This document shows, in pieces, positions 15,945 through 35,149 of a stretch of DNA of 64,000 nucleotides (positions are counted from its first letter, which is position 1; each line of letters starts with the position of its first letter). The notes under the pieces were generated by a model, which did not search any database, was not told the DNA's origin, and saw only the letters and a list, made by a program, of their open reading frames with translations. A program made the position numbers and the translations under genes. Source of the DNA: Tetraselmis striata (taxonomy: Eukaryota > Chlorophyta > Chlorodendrophyceae > Chlorodendrales > Chlorodendraceae); the NCBI GenBank assembly GCA_006384855.1, contig VCJN01001730.1, forward strand, positions 248,001-312,000. The letters run 5' to 3'.

Positions 15945-17045
15945 TACGGGCGGCAGGCATCCTTACCGCCTATACTCATCAATAGTTATTGTCGGATCGG
16001 AGATCAACGCTCTTTCCTCATACAGGTACCCAGGTACGAGTATCGATTACGTGGACGATTGACCGTGCCATCGGCATCAGCATCGTCAGCCGCGCGCCCC
16101 GCCGCCGCCACTGACTGTCGTCAGCACCATCGAGGGCGCCGCTCGGAGGTTCCCCCACTGTCATCACCGGCGGTCAGGTACACCACACCCCGCCGCAACC
16201 TCCGCCCAGCGACACGCTCTGCACGGTGCCAGGCGCTTACTGAATAGCGATATCCAGGATCACGGTCCCTACCTCGGGGTTCCGCCACAAGCGCGCTCCG
16301 CCGGCCCTGCATTGGGTGTCGGAGGTGCGATGCCGCTCGGTGATGATGGTGTCGGAGCGCGCTCACCCGCCCAGTAGCATACTTTCCGCGTATGCATATA
16401 TTTTCTCCCGGGCGTCACCGAGACAGCGACGCCGACGGCGCTCGGAACGCAACAGCCACGCCTCCTTGCACTCATTTCCCCTCCCGTTCCACCGTGATGG
16501 CAGCGATCAATGCGCTCCAGATTGCTTCGTGTTCCTGGATCACACGTCCGCTAGTGGTTTGCTTGGCGGTGCGCCGCGATAGTGGTGGGGGGCCCGGGGG
16601 GGGGGGAGGGGGGGGGGGGGGGGTGCCCTAAGACCAAAAAGCCCAACTTGCCCTCCTTCGTCATCGGCGAGATCCCACGCGCTGCGCGAAGCCCATCGGC
16701 GGTCCTACACTCCATGCCTCGCTCGTGTTCCCCCTGTCGCCCTTTGGCATCCCTCCTCCAGCGACCCACCCGGGTAGCGCTGCACACGTCAAGCGAATGA
16801 ACCAGCCGGGGCCACCCCTCCCCAACAGCCGTCCGAAGCCGCTCCCCCCCCTCGCCTACTCACCCGCCCTCCGCTGCACCATGCCACACGCGGACGCCCG
16901 CCTCTGCGCGGAGTTACCTCTCCCTGTGACTGTTCTCCTTCTCACCGCCCGCTCACCAAGAGCCTCGCAACTGCGCTTTGCCAACAGGGGACGGGCGGCT
17001 GCTCCTAGCGTAAGAGGGGGCGGAGGCGGAGAAGAGACGCCGCCA
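15945..17045. other. Intergenic region and probable promoter of the ligase gene
   Basis: No coding region is supported. A G run interrupted by single bases occupies 16,586-16,623. Open frames on both strands overlap and lack motifs. The last 300 bp are pyrimidine-rich and should contain the promoter and 5' UTR of the downstream gene. In-frame ATGs at 16,797 and 16,881 would extend that protein if the first exon starts earlier. Confidence 0.4.
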
Positions 17046-20000
17046 ATGCTCTTGGGCGGCCCAATGGTGCCGCTGGCAAGCGCCAGGTCTGCAGTGGGCG
17101 TCTGCCTGCGGCTTCCTGCCCAGCCTGCCATCAGGCTGCACAGCAACAGCCGCCCCGCGCTGCCCGGCCCGCGCCGCACCGTCCCCCGCAGCGCCCGCCG
17201 GGTGGCCGTCCAGGCCAGCCAGGCCGACTCTAACGACAGAAGCGCCTCCAGCCCCGACAGCCAGCTCACACGCGACGATGTCCTGGCGATGAAACTGAGG
17301 GAGCTGCGCATGAATCTGGACGCGCGCGGCCTGGACACTACAGGCCTCAAGGCGCGCCCGCATCCATCCGGCTCGCCCAGGCACACGGCTGCGCTTGGAT
17401 CAACCTGGCCGGCGCCGCAATAAAGCCCTTCCCCACCCCTTTCGACCGTGCAGAGAGACATGCAGGAGACGCTGCTCGAGTACCTGGAGCGTGATGGGGG
17501 CGTTGCGGAGGGTTACCGGCTAGAGGAGGTGGACGGCGACGAGAGCGAGTGGACCGTCCCAGGGCCGGGGCACCCCTACCAGGGGCTCACCACCGCGCAG
17601 CTGCACTCTCGCCTGTCGCTGCTGTCTGTCAAGGTACAGCGGCAGGGGCGGCCGAGAGCTCCTCACCTGCTTCTGAGCAACGTCGGCTCGGGGCCAGGGC
17701 TTGGGGGGCAGGAGAGGGGAGACGGCAATGGCGGGCCGCTGGAGGCTCGCGCCGCTGGGTCGGTGCTTGTAGCTGGGCGGATGGGCGGATGAGCCGGGCG
17801 CGTGGGTGCTAGTAGGCGCTTGCGGAGGGGCCCAAAAGTTCGAGCGCCGTGCAGATGCCTGATGGCGCAGCTTGGCTGCCCGCGCAGGCTCTGTCGGACC
17901 GCGTCACCGCGCTTGGCGTGTCCAAGCCCGGCCCGATGCCCAAGGCGCAGCTGGTGGCGCTGCTGGCAACGGTGAGGCTTGCCCCTCACCCCCCTCCCCT
18001 GGCCCAATCATGCCTGCGCCGCATGCCGTGCATGGAAGTAGCTGCTGCATGGGCTGAACAAGCTGTCTGCTGAGTGGGGCGCCGCTTGCTGTGGGGTTTA
18101 TCCTCCTGCCTTAAACTCCGCTTGCCCTTCCCCTGTGGCCCTACAGCTGGTGACGGGGCCCAACACAACGGCAGTCGCGCAGAGCGTGGAGCAGCAGATC
18201 CGTGAGGTGGAGCCGGCACGAAGGGGGCGCCCGCCTTCCGCCACGAACCCTGCCTCCGCGCTGAGCATCAGCCCCAGCATCACAGCTTCGGAGCTCCGCG
18301 ACGTGCAACCCCACCCGGCACAGTCTGGTCCTTCTCTTGCCGCCTGACCCAGCCCGCACATCCGCTGAGGGACAGGCGCGTGATTGAACCGACAAGCCCT
18401 CCCCCCCCCGCGCCCCCCCCCCCCCCCCCCCGGCGATGGTGTGCAGGAGCTATCCAAGCTCGGCATGGCCACCACGGGCACCAAGGCGATGCTGCGCGAG
18501 CGGCTGGAGGGCGCGCTGCAGGCGATGGCGCAGGCGGGTGTGCCCGTCAACCGCAACGACCCCTCCACCTGGTCGCTGCTGGAGCTGTCCAGCTGGCTGC
18601 GTTCCAAGGGCGTCGCGCCGCAGGGCAGCCGCCAGGAGCTAGTAGCCTGCGTGCAGGCGGGAATGGAGGCGGAGTCCCAGGCGCGCAATCCCCCCCCCCC
18701 CCCCCCCCCCCCCTCCCCCCCTTTCCCTTCTTGCTTGCCTGGCCCTTGCCATCCCATGCTGTATTGCCTTGCCGCTGACACCCTCCCCACCACCACACAC
18801 ACACACACACCGCGGCGACCTCTTCTTCCTGACGGGCAGGGGCTCAACGTTGCCTCAGCTCTGGATCCAAGCCAGTCAGGCTTCACCGAGGTCGAGAAGG
18901 TACGCCACCTTGCTCGGGGCTACCTACCCAGCGGGCATTGCATTCCAGCCCATCACCGTACTTCTCACTATCTCGCATACCCTCTGCTGGGTTGACGTGC
19001 CTCTTTGAGAGGGGGAGGGGAGGGATGAGCGCGCGCAGGTGTGTGTGTGTGTGTGTGTGTGGGGGGGGGGGGCTCTGTTTGTATGTGGAGAAGGGGGGGG
19101 GGTGCTGCCAGCACGTGCCATCCTTCATGTTGCCCTCGCAGATAGTCATGCCGCTGGTTAGTTCTCCTTCAAGCATTGGCCACGCCTGGAAGGCATGTAG
19201 GTCGCTTCAGATTTCGCCGGTTTGTGTTCAGGCAGCTTTAGAAAGGGCATAAGCCCCCCCCCCCCCCCCCCCCCCCTCTGCGCGAGAAGGCAGCCTGGGA
19301 TTCACACCCTCACCCCGGCCCTCACCTGCTGGTGCTGCCGTCCGACTCACCGCCGGGAGCCCCCTCCCCCAAATGAACTGTTCTCAGAATCTGGAAGGAC
19401 TCACCGTGGGGGAGCTCAAGGAGGCCCTCCGGGAGCGCTCCCTCGTCCTCAGCGGCGCTAAGGCGGATCTGGTTGATCGGCTCCGGGTGCGCCCCCGCCT
19501 GCCTGGTGGGAGAGTCTGGGAACACCAGTCCGAGCCCCTCACGGTCTGCTCGTACGCCTGGTTTTGCCGGGACAAGGCGCCCCTAACGTGCATCCGGGCA
19601 GGGGCGTGCACAAGCGGGGCGTGCTTCATGCTCCGTGCTGCCTGCGACCCGGTACATTTGCATTTTTGCTTGTTTGGGGGGGGGGGAGGGGGGGGGGGGG
19701 GGGGTTGAGCCGCCACAAGCTCATGCCATTGCTGGGCTTCTTGGGCCGACAGTGGCACGCAACTGTAGACCTAAAGGACAAGAGAGCTGACAGGGCCGTT
19801 GGCTGATGCTTCCCAGGTGGCGCTTGCGAATGAGCGGGTGTCTGCGGGGATGGCGAACGGAGAAGCGTCTGGAAAAGATGCGGAAGAGGAAGATAGCTCT
19901 GCCTGGAGCGAGCTGTTCCCCTGGACGCCCGACCACATCAACATGATGAGCGTGCGTATCCCCTTCTGCCCCCTCCCAGTACAACGGTGCCCCCACCTGG

Positions 20001-23000
20001 TGGAGAGCATCATGCGCCCCTCCACCTACTGCCATCCGTGCCTTAAATGCTCTGAAATAGTGGAGGTCTGCTCGGGCTCTGCATGCAAAGCTTGGTAGCC
20101 ATGCGCTCCCAATTGTGTGGCTTATCGCTGTGCACCCCACGTCGCGGGCAGGTGGAGGAGCTGCGCGAGGGGCTGGTGTACTTTGGTCTGAACGCGAGCG
20201 GGGAGCGCTCCGAGCTGGAGGAGCGCCTGTGGCCCATCCTGCAGAAGGAGGCCACGGAGTACTCCAAGAGGATGGAGATGTCAGGCAGCAGCACCGCGCT
20301 GGACGCCTCGTGGGGCAGCTTCCAGGCGGGCGAGCAGGGGCTGCCGGTGCTGCTGGAGGATCCGACGGTGGTGGCGCTGGTGTGCGGCGGGCCCTCCGCG
20401 GAGAGCGGCGTCAGCCTCACCAGTGCCCGGACGTGCGCTCCCACCACATGTCCCCCTCACTCAAGCGCCCCACGCTCATTCGCGTGCCCGCACTTATGCG
20501 CATGCCCATCAGTCCTTCGCCTCGGGATGCTGCGAGTCCCCCGCCGATTGCATCAGAGCTGGGATGTCATGACATGCCACACCACATCCGCACCCGCCGC
20601 CACAGGCTGCTCACCCCCCCCCCCCCCCCCCCCTCTCCCTCCCCTGGCGCCTCTTGCCACCAGCGTGATGGACCAGCTCCAGACGGCCAGCCGCAGCCGC
20701 AGCGCGCAGGACGAGGTGGAGGGTGATGAGGAGGGCGGAGATGGTGCCGACGACAGCCTGGGACGCGGCATTCATGTGCACGTGTACTACATCGACGCGA
20801 GCCTGGTGGCGTGGCAGGTCACCGCGGCGCAGCTCTACTCCCACTCGCCGCGCGACTTTGACTACAAGCTGGCCTCGGGCGAGCTGCAGCCCGTGAGCGG
20901 CCCGTACGCCGACTTGGCGGAGCTGGCGGCGCACCTGAAGGGCGGCGCGAGCGTGGTGTTCCCGGTGGTGCACGGCCGTTGGGGCGAGGACGGGGGACTG
21001 GCTCGGCTGCTGGAGGCGGCGGACGTGCCGTTTGTTGGGACTCCGGCGTTTGCGGCGGAGGGCGCCTTCAACAAGGTGACGCTGGCCTGCCACACATTGT
21101 ATGTGCGCAATGGGGCGAGTATAAAGAGGGTTCTTTCCATCTCATACTGCAAAGCCGCGAGAGCCCCCCCCCCCCCCCCCCCCCCCCCGCCCCCGCGCCA
21201 TGGAGCATAGCCTCTGCTTCATGCAGACTTTCTTATCAAGCGATGTCTACGATGAATGTCATGATTTGCTTAGAGGGAGGCATGCCCCACGGTTGTGTAT
21301 CGCCATGCTCTGTTGGCGACTCGCCGCTGCCAGCAAGCATGCCTCAACTCATGCCGCACGTGCTCATGCAGGCCAGCGCTAGTCAGAAGCTGCTGCATTT
21401 GGGCTACCCGCAGCTTCCGCTGCTGTCGCTCACCATTGCCGGCAACGCCGGAGCCATGCTGTCCGAGTGGGCCGCCGAGGAGCAGCTGGACGCGGAGGGC
21501 ACCTACGTGGTCAAGCCCGCCAAGTCCGGGAGCAGCATCGGCGTCTCGCTGGCGCAGGGCCTGGAGGAGGCCGCCCACATCGCCTCCAAGCTGCTGGCTG
21601 GTAGGCTTGATCACCTGCACTGTCGCCGCAGCGAACACACCCTTACCTCCTCCCCCCTCCGCCAAATGTCATTGCCAGTGCTATCGTGACCGCAATGAGG
21701 CATATCGGCTGATGTCCTCTATACACAAGTCCCTCGCGTTATCAAGCAATAAATGCTGCCTTTATAAATCACATGTATGTGGAGCAGTACGGTTGACTGC
21801 ATGCGCAGAGTGGCATTGAGCGCAGTGTTGGGCCCATCCGCTGGTCGAGCTCATTCCCTGCTGCGCGGACTCGGTGTCAATGTCCTACAGCGTTTATGTA
21901 TTCCGGGTGCCAACGCACCTATGAGAACCCTGATTATAGGCCTCGAATTGGCCTTGCATGCCACCTATCAGGACATTTGTTCCACGTCCGCTACAGTTTC
22001 GTCTACATTTGACCTCTGACACGCAGGGCAGGCGCTCATTTTCAGTATGCTTATTACCGCGCCGGCTCCCGTCCATCTGCTGGTGCTTGTAATATAGCAA
22101 TGCATAAATACCCACCTGGGCATCGCGGACACTGTCAGCGCCTGATCATCGCGCTGGCCTTGTGGTGACAGGGGGCGGCCACGAGCAGGTGGTGGTGCAG
22201 CCGTACCTCAACGACGCGCTCGAGTTCTCCGTCTGCGTCATCGACACGCCCGGCGGCCCCGTCGCCCTGCCGCCCACCGAGGTCTGCCCTACTGTTCATG
22301 CCTCCTGCTGCTGCGGGTGGCTGCGCGCCACCTAAGCTTCCCTGGAGGCTCTCTGAGGCGGGTCCTCCGCTTTGGATGGCTGTGCCGGTGATGTTGGGCA
22401 GAGCAGGAGCAATAAAGCCAGTGGGCCCTGGGCGCATGCCAACATGGCGGGACTGACTGCGCATGTGTGCTTGCCGCTGGCACAGATCGAGCTGATGCCG
22501 CATGAGGATGACGCATGGGAGGCGGAGGAGCTGCGGCGGCGCTTCCATCAGCACACCGGTATGTACAGCGCGGAGGAGCTGCCGGTGGACTTTTACCTGG
22601 AGGAGGCCACACAGCCGGCGAAGCTGCCCAAGCCGCCGCGCCTGTTTGACTACCGCCGCAAGTACCTGCCCAGCACGCAGGTGCAGAGCCACACGCCAGC
22701 CCGCTGCGCGCGCGAGACCCTCAACGCCATTCGCTTCGCCGCCACCAAGCTCTTCCTTGACTTCGGGCTGCGCGACTTTGCGCGCATCGACGGCTGGGTC
22801 ATGCCCAACGGCAGCGTGTGGGCGCCGCAGCGCGTGCGTCCCAACCCCGCGGACATCACACTCAACGAGCTCTTCACGGTGAAGGGGGTGGACAACTTCG
22901 AGCGTATTTACCGCCCGGGCGAAGAGGACACAGAGGCGGCCGCCGCCGCGCAGGCGCAGGCGCTGGAGGCCGTCGCCGACTTGGACGACACGGACGCCAC

Positions 23001-26000
23001 CGCCCTGTGCCAGTCCAAGTACGGCACCGTCATCTTCTCTGACATCAATCTCACCAGCGGCATGGAGCAGGCTAGTTTCCTTTTCCAACAGGTGGCCGCC
23101 TCACCACCCCCACCCCCTCGCTGCGCCGTGCGCCAGCTGCAAACTGACGTCCCACACCCCCCAAACCCTGCCCTCTCACCTCGGGACCAGCTCTTGCATG
23201 TCCCGCAGGGGGGGGGGGGGGGGGGGGTCAAAAAACCTAGGGGGACATAATGATGGGCCTTCTGGTTTCGTCACCATCAGCTTCATAAGAACCTTTACAA
23301 TATGCTTTAAGTGCCACGTTGACTTCCTCCACCAGCATCGGCGTACGTGCGGCATGTATACCCAGCGGTGGCACTCCGGGTGCCAACGCTCCTATTAGAA
23401 AGCTTATAAAATGCCTTAAAGAATATTACAAGCTTCAAAGAACCCCAATTCAAACCTACAAGAACGTTCTCTATAGTTCCGCTGCAGTTTTGTCCATAAT
23501 CCACCTATGACATTCGTCGCAGGTTCCTAATCGCAGTGTTCTTATTACCGCGCCGGCACCCGTATATGATAGGAGAACAATGAGTACGCAGATAGAGGAA
23601 CGAATAGCTCCCATCCGTCTGCTAGCGCCAGGGAAATGCATGCCTCGCTTGTTGTCTGCAGACTGCGCAGTCAGGTGCGACAGCTTGGTTTTCTTACCCG
23701 GACCTGCGTGTGCACCGAACCAGGCGGCCTCCGTTGGGATCAACCACGCCACCCTGCTGCGGCACCTGTACAACATGGCGGCCTCCCGCGCGGGGCTGCC
23801 GGAGCTGCCGAGCCCGCAGGAGATGAAGAGCGTGGTGAGCTCCCTCGCGGCTGACCCCTTTGAGCGCCACGACCTGGAGGGCGCCAAGGCGGCGGACGTC
23901 TGCGACGACGACGGCAAGACCTACTCCTACTCGCCGCCCACGGACCTCGGCTGGGACGCCTTCCGAACCCGGCTGGAGAAGGGCACCGAGACCATTGGCC
24001 TGCCGTTGAACCAGTTCCTGATGGACGACGACCCGCGCAGTGCGCCCCCCCGCCCCACTTCACTGAGGAGTGCTTGAAATTGCACGGGCTGCGCACCCAG
24101 GACGTCGCACCCGTCTAGTGGCCGCCAGAGCTGCTGAATTGGGGCGGTATATTCCCGGCTCGATTATGCATGCTGCGGTCCTCAAGCCCTGGGCCATGGG
24201 ATTTATTCGCAATTTATCCAGTTAGTTTTCCTGCGACGTGGCCGGCATGTGATTTGCTCACGTTTCAATGCGGGCAGACATGCGCGCACCTTAAGTCACC
24301 TACTGCCGGGGTTTTACTGGCATCGTGTGATGAACACCAGGATGGCTCGGACTATCAATGGAAAAACGAATCCGCTCTGGCACCGGCCGAGTATATGCAG
24401 GATTCGCAATGCAGCTATGGGTGCCGACACAACTATAAGACCCTTATTATAAACCGGAAACTGGGCTTGCATGCAAACTATACGAACACCCACTATAGTT
24501 CCGCGATGGTTTTGTCTGACTATGGCCTCGGGCAAGTGGGGCTGCTTGTTATTCGCAGTGCTTTTAGTACCGCGCCAGCCCCTGTTCGGCATTGCGGCCA
24601 TACAAACCCCCCCCCCCCCCCCCCCCCCCTTTCCCCTGGAGTCAGCAGCATTGGAGCACTCAGGCAGCTCACCCCCGCTTGCGACGCCTCTGACCTGGTT
24701 GTCGATGTGTGACTGTCCCCGGGCGTGTGCCTATTATGGCGCGGCCTCCCTGCAGACACGGCGGCACTGGGCACCGGCGCCCCCAGCTTCCAGGACTTTC
24801 CGCTCAGCTGGACCATCCACCCAAAGTACGCCAACCCCGACATCAAGCAAGGGCGCATGCAGCTGCGGCGCTACTCGCACGAGTACCCCGAACCTGCGGA
24901 CAAGACGGGCTTCCAGCGCGTGTACGTCCTGATGGGCGGGGAGACCAGCGAGCGCCAGGTGCGCCGCGCCTCTGACGTCCTGCTAAATGTGCAGCGGGGG
25001 GGGGGGGGGGGGGGGGGGGGGGCTAAGCCATGCACGGGGCTGCTCGCCATGCTACAGGTGAGCCTCATGAGCGGCATAAACGTGTGGCTCACCCTGCAAG
25101 GCTGCCCCGACGTCATCGCGGAGCCCTTTGTGATCACGCCCAACATGGGCATGGAGGACGAGCGCAAGCGGCGGAACGCCATCCGGGAGCGCCTGCTCTA
25201 CTACGAGCAGCTCGGCCTGGACGAGGTGTGTGACTGTGTCTATTCATCTGCCCAGCCCCCGCAGTCTGCGGCGAGAGAATGCCATGCCGTGCCATGCCAT
25301 GATATCTTTGATTAAACCGGCAGTGATTGAGCCATTACGGTCGCCGCGTGGTGATGACATTCGTGATGCATCACGATTATCATGGCTCCAAATTAACCCC
25401 ATTTTGGTGTAGTTGTCCCCGGGGATGCTTGTTGCTCGGGCGGGCTGATCTTCGCTATGTCGGGTGTCACCCAAACGCACATCGATGCGGTTGGAGCTGA
25501 CGCCCCATCACCTGGCCGCGATGCCGCAGACGGAGCTTCGCCTGCCGGAGCTGGCGGCGCACCTGGATGACCCCGCGGTGCGAGGGGCCGAGGCGCAGTA
25601 TCTGCACGAGATGATGGAGGAGGCGGACGAGGATTACCCTGAGATCCCCGTGGACTTTGTGGAGAGCACGCGCGAGCCGCACACGGGCGACATGGGCGCG
25701 GACCTGGGTCTGGACTACCTGAACTGCCCGCGGCCGGTGCAGCAGGCCATGGGAGACCGGAACCTGTGGGCGGTCCCGCCGCACCTGATGCTGCGGCACA
25801 CCGTGGAGGAGATCCATGACGCATGCAAGGTTACCGGCACTGCGGGATGGGCGGGCAATGCTGTCCACACTCTAGGCACATCCTGCTACAGTCGCAGCCT
25901 CTCTCCCTCGGGAAGACGGGGTTAGGGGGTTGAGGGGATGACATTCGATGTACCCGGCATGCTGATCGACCACCCGGCGTATATTGTAGCGTCATACTGC

Positions 26001-29000
26001 CGTCATCCCCCAAGCCGCAGCGATACAGAAATACTCTAAAAAAGTACCGCATTCAGGTAGACGCAATGCAGGCCCGCTATACCTTGATGATACATAACCG
26101 AGCATCAACAGTAGCGACTATCGCGCTGGTTAGCAACATGTTGGTGCGCGATGAAAGGTTTAGGTTACATGATACTTTGGCTGTTCCGCCGTGGCGCCGT
26201 GCGCTCAACCGGGATGCAGGAGTGCGTCAAGGGGTAACATCCACCATGTCCTTAGTTTTGGAGAGTAGCGCCCGCATGGACTGCTCCCTCTTGACTTTCT
26301 CTCAACATCTTTGGCTTGATACCCGGGGCGCGGTTTGTATGCAAATCCCAGAGCCAGCGTGTTTGTACCATTGGCAGGTGCACGCTGCTGCCGCCGGTTC
26401 CGATAGACTCGGCCCCCGAGATACTATTTTGCCTTGTCTGCAACGCAGTGTCCCGGAGCCAGGATGGTGTAGTGGGGGGAAGGGGGGGGGGGGGGGGGGG
26501 GGGGGCTGACATGAGTGTCTGTGCGCTTGGGTACGGCCCTGCAGAACGCCAACAGCCTGGCGACCCAGCCAGACGACGACAAGGACCCGGTGCTGCTGGC
26601 GCAGAGCATGTGCCGCGCGGCGACGCAGCGCGAGGCGGCGGACGCGGGCCTCACGGGCGTGGCGAGCGCCTGGAATGCGCTGTCGCCGTACGATGACCCG
26701 CCGGGCGCGCACCTTATGAACATGGAGCAGTTTGCCGACATGGCGCGCCTCAACAACGCCGTCGTGTTTGTAGCCACGCACGGCGGCTGCGGCGAGAACG
26801 GGGAGCTGCAGGCAACCGCCCTCCCCGCCTCTGTCATGCCTTCCCATGCGACCCATCCGCTCGTGGATGATGGGGCGCGGCCTGTCATCTTTGCGAACCC
26901 GCCTGCCGATCGACCGCCGTGCAGCAATGCAATGGAGGGGGCCAAATCGCCCCGGTTTGCTACGCGTGACTGGACCGTGTAGAGCTCTACTGACAGGTCA
27001 GAAGGGGCATGTTACGTCAGCGCAGAAACAACCAACACAGCGTTCCGCACGGTCTGGAATCGGAGCATCGAAGCGCTCGCAGTCCCTTGAGTTGATTTGG
27101 ATCGAACAGGGCCAAATTTGTCCCATGGCGCAGTGGGCGTAGCGGGATTCGCCCCCCAAATTTAGCGTTTTTGGTGGATGGGTGTATTGTCTTTGTTTCC
27201 GAGCCAGCAGCGCGCGGTCGTTTGCAATTCCGAGGCGTATGGTTTCGGAGCAAGGAGCGCACCTGGGCATTTCCTACTCGATTACGCCTACGGGTAAAGT
27301 GAAGCAACAAGCGATCATGTCAACCTCTGACGTGCTCGCATGCGCTGTTGTACACCTGCACGGCGGTAAACAAAGTGGCCCTTAAAAAAAGTGACCGATA
27401 GCCTCATTTTTGGCCACCGCCGTAGCGCGAAGAGAATGAGCAAGTGAATTCTGGCGTTTGAGGCAGCCGCCACCGGGTTGTAGCGGGCGCCCCCATGTGG
27501 CGCTGCCTCCGCAGCCCGCTGACTCCGCCGCCCCTTCCCTCCCTTTCCCCCATGCGCAGGCTTTTCTGGAGGAGCACGACGTGCTCTTCACCGGCTCCAA
27601 GAACCTCTGCAGCGAGATCTGCATCGACAAGGTTCAGACCGCGCACGCGCTCATGGCGCTGGAGCCCAAGGTGGGCGCTCCTCCCCCCCCCCCCCCCCCC
27701 GCCTTGCCCCCCCCCCCCCCCCCCCCCCGCTCCGGCTCAGCAGGCTCGCGGTCCGTGTTCCCTCTCCCTTTGCGGGCCCTCTGTCTGCCCTGGCGGCGAG
27801 CACACCGGGTGCCCCCATCGACCGGGGCTGCTGGCTCCAGCACGTGTAAGCTCGGATCCCGCCGTCGAGGCCAAGCCGGTCGAACCGTGCACTCGTACAT
27901 GAAGGCAGCAGCGCTGGGACGGAATCCCTGATCCTTATAACCGCCAATCACTGGACACTCCAACTTGGAGGAGCCTAGGGACCTGCGCCCACGCCGTTAT
28001 TGGGCGGCCAAGCTTGGTGGCTGGGTCGTCCCAGATCACAGAGATCCCTTGCTCAATTGTCTGGATTGGGATCGCGCATACATTCCGGCGTCCTTTCGGC
28101 AGCGGCGGCTGCAAAGCAGCTGAATGCACGAGGCATCCGGCGGCCGCCTCTGTGCGTGCTCGGGGCGGTATAAGTTGGCTGTGGGAAGGGAGTGAGTGCG
28201 TCGCCAGATGCGTGTCAGCCAATGCGCGCCTTGTCCCTCCTGACTGGGGCCAGAGAAAGCACCACAGAGCACGCCAGGGGCCCCCTTGCCGCCTGCGCCG
28301 CGCTGAGCCCCCACCCCGTCACCGGCAGGGCATCTCCTCCGCGCCCAAGGAGATTGTGGACCTGGAGGCGATGCGGATGGACCCGGAGGAAGAGTACACG
28401 CGCCTCCTGGAGCTGCTGCCGCCGACCCAGTCCATCTGCATCAAGCCCGTGGCGGACGGCTGCTCCACTGGTGCCCCCCCCCTCCCCCCCAAATCAACAG
28501 TGTGAGCATTGCTTTCCTGACACTGGAGGGTCAGGATATTGTGGAAACAGCCTCGTCGCCGGACCTGCGAAGCGGGCAATCGATCCCGTAGGGGGACGGT
28601 GCGCAGTGTGCCACGCGTGCGTCGTGCGATCGGCAGGCGGAAACCCAACCAGGTTGCCGCGGGCAAAGTTGAAGGCAGGGAAGCTCAGGACAACGCACCG
28701 CGGATGGCACTCAGCAGGAAGCACCGCCACCCTCTCAGCGGCACACAGGGGGGGCATGTGGGTATTATGTCGGTGTGTGGAGGCGCTGTACAATCAGCAC
28801 GCAAACGGCGCCCAAAAGTCGTGCCGCCCAAGAATAGGGGAACCCTAGTTCTAACCCCCCCCCTCTCACCCCCCCCCCCCCCCCCCTCGCGCACGCCTTG
28901 AAAGCCCACCCTCACAGACCATCCCCACCAACACTGACACCAACAACGGTACGGCCAGTGCGCCGTAGACAACGGGGTTGATTGCGGGATGCGGGCGAGT

Positions 29001-29710
29001 GTAGTGGAGCAATGGCCGGATTAGTTGGGGGAACCTGCAGGAATGTTGTTTTGGAGAAGCGTTGCAGGGGAGGCCACTACAGGGAGTTGCGTTGGGGGGG
29101 AAGGGGGGGGGGGGGGGATGTCCGTACCGTGTCAGCCCCGTGCAGCGGCGCTGTTCCTACCCCTCGCCCCCTGTACCACAATCAGCCCTCGGCAGTGCTC
29201 CGCCCCGCTTCCCGCATCACCTCAATTAGCCCCTCCCCCCCCCCCCCCCCCCCCTTCCTTACGCGCATTGGCGCAGGCGTCGCCAAGATCTCGTCGGCGG
29301 ACGACTTTGTGGCCTACGCGGACGCCTTCCTGGCCAAGGAGCCGGTGCTGAGGGCCGGCAGCCTGTCCGGGCAGAGCTGCGACATCGAGATGCCCCTCTC
29401 CGGCACCGGGCAGCTGATGGCAAGCGCCCGCTTCTTTCCGGCGTCCCGACTCTCAGCCGCTTGGCCCAAAGTTCACAACTGTTGTTGCCGCACCCCTGCT
29501 TTGGTGGATGTGTGTGCGCGCGCGCCCGCTCTTGTTCTGGTCGCACGTCAAGTCCATGGTCAGAAGCCACCAACACACATCAGCAGTAGCTATGCCAATA
29601 ATGATAGGATGCCATATTGTACACTTCTCCATAAATGGCCATATTCTTCGTTCCTGTACTGTTGTAGGTCTGTGTGCCCTTCTCCACATGCTGCTGCTGC
29701 TGCTGCTGGG

Positions 29711-29751
<41 letters not shown>

Positions 29752-32700
29752 ATAGGTCGCCTCAGAGATGGTTATCGATGTAGAGCTGCACACACTCACA
29801 CAGGAGACACGTGGTCAATGAGGCTGCTACGCGTGTACATTACACTCCTCACGCCACGATGACATGCCCGGCACTGCGGCAGTGTGGGTCCTTCCCTGCC
29901 CAGGCGGGCCAAACGCCCTCTTGACTCTTGCGCGCTGACCCCCCGCCTTCACTGTCGGCTCCGCGCGGCGCCGCAGGTGGAGCCCTTTGTGGACACCGAC
30001 CCCATCACCATCCGCAAGAGCGCCTCCGGTGAGGGGGCCTGCCCAGCCGGGAACCCGGGGGGGGGGGGGGGGGGGGGGGGCGTTGTGAGCCCGCAATGGT
30101 GCCGCAGCTGCCCCCAAGGCCAAGTGCGCATGCCCGGACCAGGACCACTGTGCTGCGGATGCTGACGCAGCTATAGATAAGGAGGCCTTGTCATCAGCCT
30201 CAAACTGGGTTGCATGTGACCTGCAGGACCATTCGCTGAGGTGCCGCCACAGTTTCGTTTACATTTGACCTCTGGCAGGTTTCAGGGGCAAGTTCTTATT
30301 CGCAGCGTCCACATCACCACGCCGGCACCCGTAGGCAGTGTTACCCATCGACCGTCACGCCCGTAGCGACGGTCTGTCATGTGCGATACGGTCGGCCCTG
30401 TGCGCGTGCATGTGGCCCGGCAGTGCCATGGATGTCCGACGGGGCGTGCGGGTGGCTGAGCGGCGCCCCTTTGCTGCGGCGGTGTGCGGCTCGGCAGGCG
30501 CGGACGAGGTGGAGTGGGCGGGCAACAGCCGGTGGGTGGAGGTCACGGTGGGCATCATCGGCGAGGAGGGCGCCATGCACGCGCTCACGCCCTCCGTCGT
30601 CGTCTGCGAGCGCGGGGACGTGCTCACGCTGGAGGAGAAGTTTGAGGTGCGCGGCCCCACCAGCGCCCGCATGCGCGTGGCGGACGAGGTACACCGGCAC
30701 GGGCGGTGCATCCGCAGTGTTGTGCACGTTGGTCGGCATTGGTCGACCGCTGCTCCCAACCATTCCGGCTAACAGCGGAGAGGTTGTAGCATGTCGGGTC
30801 GTCCGCTATTCAAGGCGGTACGCACATGACCGGGGGGGGGGGGGGGGGGGGGGGCACGAGCGACATCATCCTGCTCTGATCGAGGCGGCGTCCGGCGAGT
30901 CGACGCCCTCATTGCGGAGGGGGCCCTCCTGTAGCAGAGAGAGGGGGGGGGGGGGGGAGATAGCTTCCGCCCTCGCAGCCGCATCCGCTCGCCGGCCCGC
31001 CCAGGCTCGGGGGCCTGGGTCCGTTTCGCCAGCCCGTTGAGTGGCTGTCGATGTTCGCTGACTGTGGTGTGGTGGGGACGAGCCGCCGGGTACTGCAGGG
31101 ACACTGACCCCCCCCCCCCCCCCCCCACCCACCCCCTTCCTTTTCTGGTCGTCCCGCAGAGCGGAGTGGGGACGAACCTGACGCCGCCGCCAGCGAGCAT
31201 CGTGACGCCTGAGGTGGGTATGGAATGCGCCAGGCCGGTGTGCCACGAGGGCGAGAGACGAGAGGGCGAAGGGGGAGGAGAGGGGGGTTTGTTTACTGCT
31301 AAATTGTACGGGGAGGAAGGGGCGGGCCCAGCCGATTTTAGTGTCGTACATCAACTGGCAGCGCGACACAGCATTGTTCGGCTCGGGTTACTCGGGGTGA
31401 GTCGCGTGCGTGCCAATGCGGGGAAACATGGCACAGCCCCGCTCCGAAGTCGCCCGTGCGCACAGCTTCCCCCGACGCGCCATGTGTCCACGTGTGGGGG
31501 ATCTCCAGCACGCGACATGCGGAGGGCTCTGTCTGCACCCCAAATCTGTGGCTTCGCCTCATTGTCTTTGACTGCAGTGCTTGGGCTTTGAAGGTTCTCC
31601 CCCCCCCCCCCCCCCCCCCCAGCCCCTTCTCCATAACTCCAAGCGCCCCGATTCTATCGGGGCTGATACTGCGAGACGATGCAGAGCGAGCCATCCGCGC
31701 AAGAAGGGGGGGGGGGGGGGGGGGGGGGGGGAGGTAGATGTCAGAGTTCTGGCACAGGTGTGCACTTTCGTGCAGTCGCTGACCATATCTGACCTAAGAG
31801 TGGATGCCAAGTGCATCCAGATGCCGGGCGCAGCATCTGGATCTCCCCCCCAGCTCCCTGCCATCCCCATCGCCTCCCTCCTCAGATGATGCTGAGCCCC
31901 TCTTCACCCCCCCCCCCCCCTTTCTTTACGGGGGCGCAGGCGCTGAAGGGCGCCCGGCAGCGCTGCGAGCTGGTGGCGGATGTGCTGGGGCTGTCGGGGG
32001 TGGCGCGCATCGATGCCTTCATGCACGTGGACACCGGCGAGATCGTGGTCATCGAGGTGGGGAGGCAGCTGCAGCCCCCATACAATACTCCCCCCCACCC
32101 ACCCCCCGGCCTGCCCTCCTCGCAGTCCTGGTCCCCGTGGAGCCCCCCCCCGTTGTGCCATGACGCGCTCAGCCTGAACCTCATGAGACGCTGAGACCCC
32201 CCCCCCCCCCCCCCCCCCTCCCCCCCCGGGGGCCTGCCCCTGCCCCTTCCCCGGCCCATGCGCCCCCACCCGTGCGCAGGTGAACACTGTTCCGGCGTTT
32301 ACGCCGCACACCGTCCTGCTCCACCAGGCGCTGCAGGAGGACCCGCCGATGTACCCCCAGGTGCCCTCCTCCCTCTCCTCTGTATGCCCCCGCGGCGCTC
32401 TCTCCAGGAGTTGGTCTTCCACTTCTGCCGCCGCGGCGCCGTCCCTGCTCGCCCCCAGCCTCTGCCGCCGCCGCTGACCGGCCCCCGCCCCGTCCCTCAT
32501 TCCCCGGGCGCGCAGGACCTGTTCCGCACCGTGGTGGAGCTCGCGCTGCTGCCGCCGGTGGAGGCAAACCTGGCCGGCATGGACGGCCGCGACGACACCT
32601 TCCTGGAGGACGACACCTGGTGCGGCCGCGGCCATGACGGAGACGGGCAGTCATATTGCGTCGTGAGAGGGGCTAGATTTGTGTGATGCACCAGGAGTGA

Positions 32701-32897
32701 TCTCGACCGCTTGCCCCCCCCCCCCCCCCCCCGCCCGCAGGTACGACGACGTGTACGAGGACGATGGCCAGGTGGACCTAGGCAGCGGCGGCGGCGGCAG
32801 CGGCTGGGGATGGGACGAGTCCTCTGGCGATGAGGGGCAGGGCTGGTCTGACACGCCGGAGGAGGCCGAGCCCGCGAGCAATGACGGAGGCTGGTAG
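17046..32897 (+). CDS. DDL: Plastid-targeted SAP-array / tandem D-alanine-D-alanine ligase fusion, 28 exons
   Basis: The ligase joins two D-Ala (ATP-dependent) for plastid peptidoglycan. Exons: 17046-17351, 17454-17633, 17888-17971, 18147-18302, 18447-18680, 18840-18899, 19388-19486, 19817-19951, 20152-20432, 20664-21075, 21372-21600, 22172-22281, 22486-23091, 23724-24039, 24756-24988, 25058-25225, 25497-25829, 26545-26811, 27560-27670, 28329-28470, 29277-29419, 29977-30028, 30498-30646, 31160-31213, 31940-32056, 32280-32360, 32516-32619, 32741-32897. All joins keep phase, giving about 1,770 residues. The N-terminus is Arg/Ser/Ala-rich and ends near RRVAVQA, a typical algal transit-peptide end. 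SAP-like motifs follow, then two ATP-grasp units as in land-plant DDL. The start is uncertain (16,797, 16,881, 17,046 or 17,064). Exon 23 may extend to 30,688. The 25497 acceptor is weak. A 15-bp microexon at 19142-19156 is possible. Exons 1, 5, 18 and 21 end at GC donors. Confidence 0.85.
17265..20270 (+). other. Array of about six SAP-like motifs at the N-terminus of the ligase gene (exons 1-9)
   Basis: After splicing, the helix-turn-helix SAP pattern (LxxxLxxxGLxxxGxKxxLxxRL) recurs. Motif 1 spans exons 1-2 (LRELRMNLDARGLDTTGLK). Motif 2 spans exons 2-3 (ALSDRVTALGVSK, then KAQLVALL). Motif 3 spans exons 4-5 (ELRD joined to ELSKLGMATTGTKAMLRERL). Motif 4 is in exon 5 (LSSWLRSKGVAPQGSRQEL). 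Motif 5 is in exon 7 (LKEALRERSLVLSGAKADL), and motif 6 spans exons 8-9 (VEELREGLVYFGLNASGERS). Motifs 3 and 6 become continuous only after intron removal, which supports the gene model. SAP domains bind DNA and occur in plastid-nucleoid and nuclear proteins. Motifs 1, 2 and 4 are diverged. That they bind DNA here is inference. Confidence 0.7.
19040..19060 (+). repeat. (GT)n microsatellite in intron 6 of the ligase gene
   Basis: About ten GT repeats, followed directly by a G run. Confidence 0.9.
21904..22071 (+). mobile_element. MITE-like element, copy A (ligase intron 11)
   Basis: The 168-bp copy starts CGGGTGCCAACGC and ends GCGCCGGCTCCCG. These are inverted repeats of each other with a few mismatches. 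The core carries TCTACATTTGACCTCTGAC. No clear target duplication is visible. Confidence 0.6.
23377..23562 (+). mobile_element. MITE-like element, copy B (ligase intron 13)
   Basis: Starts CGGGTGCCAACGC and ends TTATTACCGCGCCGGCACCCG region-wise as in the other copies. Its termini are the best-preserved pair: 13-bp inverted repeats differing at two positions. Confidence 0.65.
24418..24582 (+). mobile_element. MITE-like element, copy C (ligase intron 14)
   Basis: Starts TGGGTGCCGACAC, has GGGCTTGCATGCAA in the middle, and ends with GTACCGCGCCAGCCCC. More diverged than copies A and B. Confidence 0.55.
29707..29750 (+). repeat. (TG)n microsatellite in intron 21 of the ligase gene
   Basis: About twenty alternating T and G dinucleotides with one C interruption, preceded by CTG repeats. 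Confidence 0.9.
30157..30331 (+). mobile_element. MITE-like element, copy D (ligase intron 22)
   Basis: Starts CGGATGCTGACGC, contains TTTACATTTGACCTCTGGCA and ends CACGCCGGCACCCG. Confidence 0.55.
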
Positions 32898-33251: not shown

Positions 33252-33416
33252 CGGGTGCTGACGCACACTGTAAGAGTTGGTGTTTTACGACTCGAACTGG
33301 GCTTGCATGCAATAAGCTATGAGGGGATGGTTCCGTTGTAGGCTCATCTACGGTTGACCTCTGTCAGGTATATGGCAGGTTCTTATTCACAGTGTTCTTA
33401 TGACCGCACCGGCATT
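33252..33416 (+). mobile_element. MITE-like element, copy E (between ligase and methyltransferase genes)
   Basis: Starts CGGGTGCTGACGC, contains GGGCTTGCATGCAATA and GTTGACCTCTGTCAGG, and ends near GACCGCACCGGCA. Confidence 0.55.
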
Positions 33417-33949: not shown

Positions 33950-35149
33950 ATGCTGAAGCACCGTCGTCGGCATCACCTGCTGCGCGCGTCGCCTCACGGC
34001 TCACCCATATTAATCGCTACGGCTCGCTTCGGCTCGCTTTACACATCCCGAAGACACCGCCCCAGCTCACATCAGCACTGTCACAGCGCGCGGCCTCATC
34101 CCCGGACGTCCGATAGCGCAATGATGTCGGACGCCCGCGTGCGGTCGTCGGCCGCGCGCACTGGCTTCACGACCTTGGTGATGTGCGTGGTGGCATTCCT
34201 CGCGGGCAGCTTGTGGGAGAAAGCGGCCAGCGGTGCGCTGCAGCGGCGTGACACAGCGGCCACCGTGGCGGCAGCGCTGGCGTCGCAGCGTGCGGAGCTT
34301 TTGCAGCAGCAGGCGAAGACGACGGCGGAGGCGGCGACCGAGACGATGAGCCACACGAAGCTTCAGCAACAGGTCGCCGCGGTCCCCGCCCCGGCGCAGG
34401 CGGTCCCCCGGGCCGCGCTGACGGCATCCCTCGAAGCCGGCGACAGCCGGCACCGCCAGCAGCTGGTGTCTATCATCGACGTGTGCGACTTCCCCCGTCC
34501 CTCGCCCGCGGTGGGGCACTACGACGCGGCCTACTTCGGGTGGCAGGTGAAGGAGAATATGAACAACGTGGGATGGCAGCGGGCGCGGCTAAAGCCCAGC
34601 CTGGAGGCGGCGCCGCGGGCGGCGGTGTTCGAGGTGGGCTGCAGCGGGGGATACACCCTGGCCAGCATCGCCGCCGGCAGCAAGCACTGCTACGAGGTCA
34701 ACGACGTCGCGGTGGCGCATGCGCAGCAGAAGCACCCGGACATCCACATGTACAAGCGCTGGGCGGACGTCCCGGACGACGCCATCGACTACGCGTACAG
34801 CTTCGACAGCTTCGAGCACCACGTCAGCCCGCTGGACAACCTGATGTGCCTGTACTCAAAGATGCGGCGCGGCGGCACGGTGCACATCGAGGTGCCGTTC
34901 GAGCACGGCAGTTTCGGCGGCTCGTCGCCCAACGTGTATGGCCGTCGGTGGCGGCCGAACGACCCCAACAACCACCTCTTCACGTGGAGCCCGCTGGTGC
35001 TGGGCAACTTTGTCCAGGCGGCGGGCTTCCGCGTCTCGGCGTGCCGCGACGGTGAGGAGATGTGGAACACGTGGAGGGCGGAGAGGCGGCAGGCGGCGCC
35101 GGGTCCGCGCGAGAAGCTGGCCGTTTGGTGCTTGGGCGTGAAGGACTAG
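33950..35149 (+). CDS. Single-exon, membrane-anchored SAM-dependent methyltransferase-like protein
   Basis: The frame has 399 codons and no intron, unlike its neighbours. A hydrophobic segment (TTLVMCVVAFLAGSLW) near residues 75-90 is followed by an Ala/Gln-rich, probably coiled stalk, a type II Golgi/ER-like layout. The catalytic region follows. AVFEVGCSGGYTLASIAAG (about 225-245) is the glycine-rich SAM loop, and IDYAYSFDSFEHHVSPLDNL (about 285-305) fits motif IV of class I methyltransferases. A C-terminal stretch has HLFTWSPLVLGNFVQAAGF, typical of the methyltransferase-11 type. The substrate is unknown; sugar or lipid O-methylation is only a guess. I use the first in-frame ATG. ATG 34,121 would give a shorter N-terminus placing the anchor about 17 residues in and is equally plausible. 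Confidence 0.8.
   Translation: MLKHRRRHHLLRASPHGSPILIATARFGSLYTSRRHRPSSHQHCHSARPHPRTSDSAMMSDARVRSSAARTGFTTLVMCVVAFLAGSLWEKAASGALQRRDTAATVAAALASQRAELLQQQAKTTAEAATETMSHTKLQQQVAAVPAPAQAVPRAALTASLEAGDSRHRQQLVSIIDVCDFPRPSPAVGHYDAAYFGWQVKENMNNVGWQRARLKPSLEAAPRAAVFEVGCSGGYTLASIAAGSKHCYEVNDVAVAHAQQKHPDIHMYKRWADVPDDAIDYAYSFDSFEHHVSPLDNLMCLYSKMRRGGTVHIEVPFEHGSFGGSSPNVYGRRWRPNDPNNHLFTWSPLVLGNFVQAAGFRVSACRDGEEMWNTWRAERRQAAPGPREKLAVWCLGVKD

Follow-up and report, generated by a model that had tools for sequence, protein, structure and literature searches.

An array of SAP-type motifs precedes a tandem D-alanine–D-alanine ligase in a predicted protein of the green alga Tetraselmis striata

Introduction

The D-alanine–D-alanine ligase (Ddl) of plants is a fused pair of ligase units, a form that one account places "throughout the whole plant lineage" (PMC9954125), and the peptidoglycan pathway described for moss includes this enzyme (PMC9434261). 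Retention of the pathway is portrayed as patchy (PMC4815162, PMC10784329), with DDL and MURE reported as its only members retained in Ostreococcus and Bathycoccus (PMC4815162). The land-plant MurE is identified with PAP11 (PMC12681378, PMC9456514); it is described as contacting the SAP motif of PAP1 and as positioning that motif at the channel through which DNA enters the plastid RNA polymerase (PMC12681378), and cross-links between PAP1 and MurE are reported (PMC9456514). Here we describe a gene of Tetraselmis striata, located at positions 17046–32897 (+) of a 64,000-nucleotide stretch of contig VCJN01001730.1 (hereafter 'the window'), in which a series of SAP-type motifs is predicted to be joined to a tandem Ddl. 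We refer to it as the SAP-Ddl gene.

Comparison of the SAP-Ddl protein with these systems reveals both shared and divergent features. Like the land-plant DDL of Arabidopsis and Physcomitrium, as presented in PMC9954125, it carries two Ddl units per chain and belongs to a plastid peptidoglycan context; unlike that enzyme, as far as its description there extends, it has a SAP array in front of unit 1. Like bacterial D-alanine–D-alanine ligase (TIGR01205, PF01820/PF07478), each of its units possesses both lobes and most of the active-site motifs, whereas the algal protein is tandem, contains long insertions and the SAP array, and scores below the curated NCBIfam cut-offs. As with the PAP1/pTAC3 SAP domain and PAP11/MurE of the plastid-encoded RNA polymerase, a Mur-pathway enzyme is associated with SAP; the accounts of that complex (PMC12681378, PMC9456514) describe two proteins and one SAP domain, in contrast to the single chain, several motifs and Ddl enzyme of the alga. 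A literature search of open-licence papers returned no description of a Ddl with a SAP array, and the predicted architecture, which adds such an array to a tandem Ddl of an already described type, appears to be new.

Results

Overall organization and the SAP array

Reading of splice signals yielded a single open frame of 1765 amino acids, assembled from 28 exons and 27 introns and ending with a stop codon at 32895–32897. The exon count and both ends agree with a preliminary description of this DNA, which had likewise proposed one 28-exon gene. All coordinates given below for this gene refer to the forward strand of the window. The 58 N-terminal residues (17046–17219) resemble a transit peptide, with nine arginines, no aspartate or glutamate, and the terminal sequence RRVAVQAS; VxA-type ends are typical for green-algal transit peptides. 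Judged on composition alone the N-terminus is plastid-like, and to that extent the chloroplast-type transit peptide of the preliminary description is supported. At the other end of the spliced translation, a tail of 71 residues plus the stop codon (32561–32897) is acidic and glycine-rich in composition.

Between these ends, the front third of the protein contains the SAP array. Motifs were scored against the Pfam SAP family (PF02037, gathering score 23.9 bits) both singly and on the whole spliced protein. The latter gave 103.5 bits over four stretches, above the curated cut-off, and three of the six motifs exceed the cut-off by themselves. These are motif 1 (residues 78–114; 17277–17489), which spans the GC-AG intron 1 and scores 30.7 bits spliced, with 16.5 bits for its first half in an unspliced reading frame; motif 3 (residues 231–266; 18267–18518; 40.2 bits), which spans intron 4; and motif 5 (residues 341–373; 19388–19486; 37.5 bits), which lies in exon 7 and was detected unspliced in the genome scan. 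Motif 6 (residues 412–448; 19931–20241), spanning intron 8, falls just under the cut-off at 23.2 bits. The other two are SAP-like: motif 4 (residues 280–316; 18558–18668) inside exon 5, and the degenerate motif 2 (residues 156–190; 17613–17971), recognized by eye across intron 2. Motifs 1, 2, 3 and 6 therefore cross introns, while motifs 4 and 5 each occupy a single exon.

The preliminary description had held that several motifs are created only by splicing. That is so for motif 6, which is recognized only with the exon 8/9 junction in place, since SAP went unreported in the raw unspliced open reading frame (ORF) at 20056–21207 that contains exon 9/10. Two other raw ORFs already score 35.6 bits (18384–18992, motifs 3 and 4) and 33.1 bits (19253–19705, motif 5) against Pfam SAP.

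A second profile, derived from other genes of the same genome through seven of their SAP segments, scored the array at 39.2 bits, compared with at most 7.4 bits in 2000 residue shuffles. The concern, raised with the original proposal, that the motifs might fail to outscore random helical repeats was thus addressed in part, with residue shuffles and not with other helical repeats, and found no backing. Scored singly with this profile, motif 5 (25.2 bits) and motif 1 (7.7 bits) exceed the best single shuffled domain (6.3 bits). A sequence search of the PDB with the array returned three sequences at E ≤ 1, with E values between 0.0017 and 0.0095: MKL1, E1B-55kDa-associated protein 5 and Hcc-1. 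The entries for the last two are titled SAP domains.

Single-sequence AlphaFold2 models were made of two exon pieces. In the model of exon 5, helices at 44–53 and 62–77 form a helix-loop-helix across motif 4, with a predicted local distance difference test score (pLDDT) of 81–94 for this block; Foldseek placed the SAP domains 1zrj (0.8 Å over 36 columns), 2do1 (1.4 Å over 39) and 2do5 among its 34 matches to motif 4, none with E < 0.001. The model of the exon 9 piece, which covers motif 6, contains a helix at 2–11, a loop and a helix at 21–44 at a mean pLDDT of 65.7, and Foldseek returned zero matches to it. Taken together, the profile comparisons indicate that the array of SAP-type motifs is real; three of its members are sound, two are weak and one is doubtful.

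Two Ddl units

The back two thirds of the protein comprise two ATP-grasp Ddl units, unit 1 at residues 488–992 (20359–23807) and unit 2 at residues 1120–1694 (24905–32560), each assigned from Pfam, NCBIfam and PDB matches and from comparison of active sites. The Pfam families for the two lobes score 107.8 bits (PF01820, cut-off 34.6) and 96.3 bits (PF07478, cut-off 24), and N and C lobes are covered by both units. PDB matches to Ddls or to the related D-Ala-D-Lac/Van ligases comprise 37 distinct sequences for unit 1 and 35 for unit 2. The presence of two units, as originally proposed, is borne out by these matches to solved enzymes and by the two lobes in each. The units are 26% identical to one another. 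Genome scans covered an assembly of 224,097,584 bases in 2903 contigs (the window being C1399:248001–312000); in them, the SAP-Ddl gene is the single match to PF01820. A search of viral contigs found no relatives of the gene.

The reference for the active sites consisted of 10 bacterial loci drawn from 121 pattern matches, eight of which were usable (L057, for which no Ddl frame was selected, and L055, for which an incorrect one was, were set aside; L061 is incomplete). Relative to these eight, unit 1 retains HG..GEDG, the lysine, GSSIG, KY, ARID and the asparagine, and has aspartate in place of the usual glutamate at one metal-ligand position. Unit 2 retains HG..GENG, the lysine, ARID and the metal-ligand aspartate, glutamate and asparagine; it has GCS for GSS/GST, and KF (in exon 23, 30498–30688) for the KY that is present in all eight bacterial loci. 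Replacement of tyrosine by phenylalanine at this position occurs in D-Ala-D-Lac ligases, and the KF of unit 2 may denote an altered preference for the second substrate.

Continuity of the gene model

The introns of the SAP-Ddl gene comprise 23 of GT-AG type and four of GC-AG type (introns 1, 5, 18 and 21). GC donors in 4 of 27 introns represent a high share; for Micromonas CCMP1545 a figure of 26% is given (PMC4815162). The model omits a putative exon of 15 bases near 19142.

Several observations bear on whether the SAP and Ddl regions belong to one gene. Exon 9 (20152–20432), a single open exon, holds 30 of the 37 residues of motif 6 and also the beginning of the N lobe of Ddl, for which the best stretch of Dala_Dala_lig_N begins at residue 492. 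A coding score, based on codon usage trained on exons 10–28 and applied in frame to exons 1–9, ranged from −0.06 to +0.75 and was below zero in exon 6 only; 50 chunks taken from introns 1–9 averaged −0.79 and reached −0.18 at most. In exon 7 one reverse frame (0.61) outscores the frame of the model (0.27). Runs of C or G of at least 10 bases occur in 17 of the 27 introns and in none of the 28 exons.

When frame-keeping alternative splice joins were ranked by their score with the own-genome SAP profile, the junctions of the model ranked 2 of 44 (exons 1/2), 1 of 26 (4/5) and 2 of 91 (2/3). The better-ranked alternative at junction 1/2 is a 2-base shift that retains motif 1. Junction 8/9 tied for rank 2 of 61 (4.7, median 3.7), with little discrimination among the candidates. 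The stretch from exon 7 to exon 9 is closed when left unspliced, and 20 other single-intron joins across it preserve the frame. TGTAA is the poly(A) signal of green algae; the plus strand contains none between 17046 and 22088, a weak negative given that about three are expected in 5 kb, and one lies 132 bases past the stop codon. Exon 9 content, coding score and placement of C/G runs make a misjoined model very improbable, and at the level of sequence the architecture of a SAP array plus Ddl is confirmed.

Several further features of the locus were noted. The C/G runs in the introns of the SAP-Ddl gene are 10–27 bases long, and 62 runs of at least 10 bases occur across the window. A diverged dispersed repeat is present in five copies, at 22028, 23519, 24541 and 30288 (introns 11, 13, 14 and 22) and at 33375 in the 3′ flank; it may represent an element of the introner or MITE type (miniature inverted-repeat transposable element). 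Directly behind the intron-rich SAP-Ddl gene lies an intronless ORF of 342 amino acids (34121–35149, +) that matches Methyltransf_23 at 39.5 bits.

Peptidoglycan pathway and a second SAP array in the genome

Exon-level matches to much of the peptidoglycan pathway were found in the same assembly. The best NCBIfam matches correspond to MurA (C1001), MurB (C897), MurG (C407), MraY (C1027), MurE (C347), MurC (C2722, with a near-identical copy on C104) and MurD (C1484, with a second match on C2044). The Mur and MraY matches are pieces, none of them at its curated NCBIfam cut-off. A split bifunctional penicillin-binding protein (PBP) lies on C448, its transglycosylase in three pieces and its transpeptidase piece, detected by a scan of that locus, at 27.3 bits (cut-off 22.1). 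MurE, MurA and the PBP are each distributed over several pieces, as expected of spliced genes, and MurB and MurG over one exon each. The presence of these Mur, MraY and PBP exons in its assembly gives the Ddl a peptidoglycan setting, and the assembly, judged by these family matches, contains most of the pathway at exon level.

Some candidates were rejected. Locus L051 was dismissed as MurG, its best match being PssE (L053 is MurG-like), and C1108 was dismissed as MurA, being AroA-like. The genome-level search for a PBP transpeptidase matched only two bacterial-looking contigs. Other PBP matches lie on C57, C2280 and C145, contigs that have long ORFs and look bacterial. In the loci examined, these three contigs, together with C710 and C1131, lack C/G runs and carry long ORFs free of introns; all five are probably bacterial contigs inside the assembly.

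A gene with three SAP motifs was found at C1202:38296–38718 (−) (L045, 100.3 bits), with similar matches on C422, a near-copy. Its N-terminus appears plastid-like by eye and it has a basic KKRGRRKK stretch; downstream there is a sub-threshold KOW match, and PDB matches include uL24c and NusG (E 0.05–0.07). Its product may be a NusG-like protein of the plastid or a nucleoid protein. It shares with the SAP-Ddl gene a SAP array and a plastid-like start, and differs in that no Ddl was found in it.

Discussion

The architecture of the SAP-Ddl gene, its coding signal, its SAP and Ddl homologies and its pathway neighbours can be read from the sequence itself. The explanation that we favour, with a probability of roughly 45%, is that the gene specifies a plastid-imported fusion of a tandem Ddl for plastid peptidoglycan with a SAP array that tethers it at the nucleoid or the transcription machinery. 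The nuclear gene would give rise to a fusion protein imported into the plastid, where its fused-pair Ddl, active in one unit or in both, would most likely produce D-Ala-D-Ala for peptidoglycan. The SAP array that makes up the front third would most likely act as a tether or docking arm. Its site would be the nucleoid or the transcription machinery of the plastid, and protein partners would contribute to the attachment no less than direct contact with DNA. The contact between MurE/PAP11 and the SAP motif of PAP1, as described for land plants, may by analogy be taken as a precedent for a SAP-linked Mur-pathway enzyme in plastids.

A number of results weigh against this reading. Motif 2 has no Pfam match and was not reported by the own-genome profile; motif 4 is weak, with 14.9 bits for Pfam SAP against 24.5 for the related family Ish1; and motifs 3 (3.8 bits), 6 (1.4) and 4 (−1.8) fall below the best shuffled domain when scored singly with the own-genome profile. 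With motif 2 unmatched, the earlier count of about six motifs is generous; the array itself, with its significant score and three members over the Pfam cut-off, stands. Among the 25 NCBIfam matches listed for each Ddl unit, both units lie below the curated cut-offs (best for unit 1, TIGR01205, 134 bits against 245.65 needed; best for unit 2, NF002378, 110 against 243; the models are bacterial and archaeal), and the activity of each unit is therefore at most predicted. A DNA search with positions 17000–21100, in which 40 of 139 candidates were scored, found no second (allelic) copy: the window alone matched at full length, and 56 of the 57 matches covered 30–70 bases. MurF, the user of the Ddl product, was not found in the assembly, its model matching only within the genes for MurE and MurC; a MurF split into short exons may have escaped the search. 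Finally, the array (residues 59–487) is acidic, with an isoelectric point of 4.73 and a net charge of −22. Net charge ranges from −5 to +3 across its six motifs. For comparison, two solved SAP domains have +1 and +2, and the three SAP motifs examined from a different gene of the same genome have +1 to +3. Nucleic-acid binding is a trait of many SAP members and is not universal among them, and the charge of this array speaks against simple direct binding to DNA. The DNA binding and coupling to the plastid nucleoid put forward in the preliminary description stay conjectural.

The same acidity suits a different role, in which the array would be a protein–protein scaffold unrelated to DNA, serving self-association or assembly with other Mur enzymes at the inner envelope. 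With motifs that are near-neutral or acidic, and with motifs 2, 4 and 6 having drifted away from the SAP profile, we consider such a scaffold possible, if short of probable; set against it are the SAP consensus retained in the three strongest motifs and the names of the array's PDB matches at E ≤ 1, all of which are nuclear proteins that handle DNA or RNA. A second alternative concerns the enzyme and not the array: the Ddl may have left wall synthesis wholly or in part to serve plastid gene expression, as is reported for MurE (PAP11) in land plants (PMC12681378, PMC9456514). The failure to find MurF and the substitutions in the active sites of both units would fit such a change, as would the reported retention of DDL and MURE alone in Ostreococcus and Bathycoccus (PMC4815162), yet most catalytic residues are kept in both units and the other pathway members are matched at exon level in the genome, including a PBP with both domains, so that we regard this alternative as improbable.

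Least credible of all is the explanation that two adjacent genes were joined by our model, or that a SAP gene reads through into a Ddl gene. The alternative joins between exons 7 and 9, the closed unspliced stretch between them and the raw exon 9/10 ORF in which SAP was unreported leave some room for it; the sharing of motif 6 and the Ddl start by exon 9, the coding scores of exons 7, 8 and 9 in the model frame and, weakly, the distribution of TGTAA argue against it, and we judge an artefact of this kind very improbable.

If the favoured tethered fusion is correct, it might tie the synthesis of wall precursors to the nucleoid or to the plastid RNA polymerase, such that plastid DNA would place or time peptidoglycan synthesis and hence plastid division. 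This extension, drawn by analogy, we hold to be rather unlikely. Why plants and algae retain pieces of the peptidoglycan pathway, and what roles these have beside wall synthesis, is a standing question. MurE is described as having turned into a component of the plastid RNA polymerase in land plants, and DDL as one of the few members that some prasinophytes retain (PMC4815162, PMC12681378). In an alga whose assembly also contains most of the pathway, a Ddl with a SAP array of its own would connect wall synthesis with the nucleic acid of plastids in a concrete way that can be put to the test.

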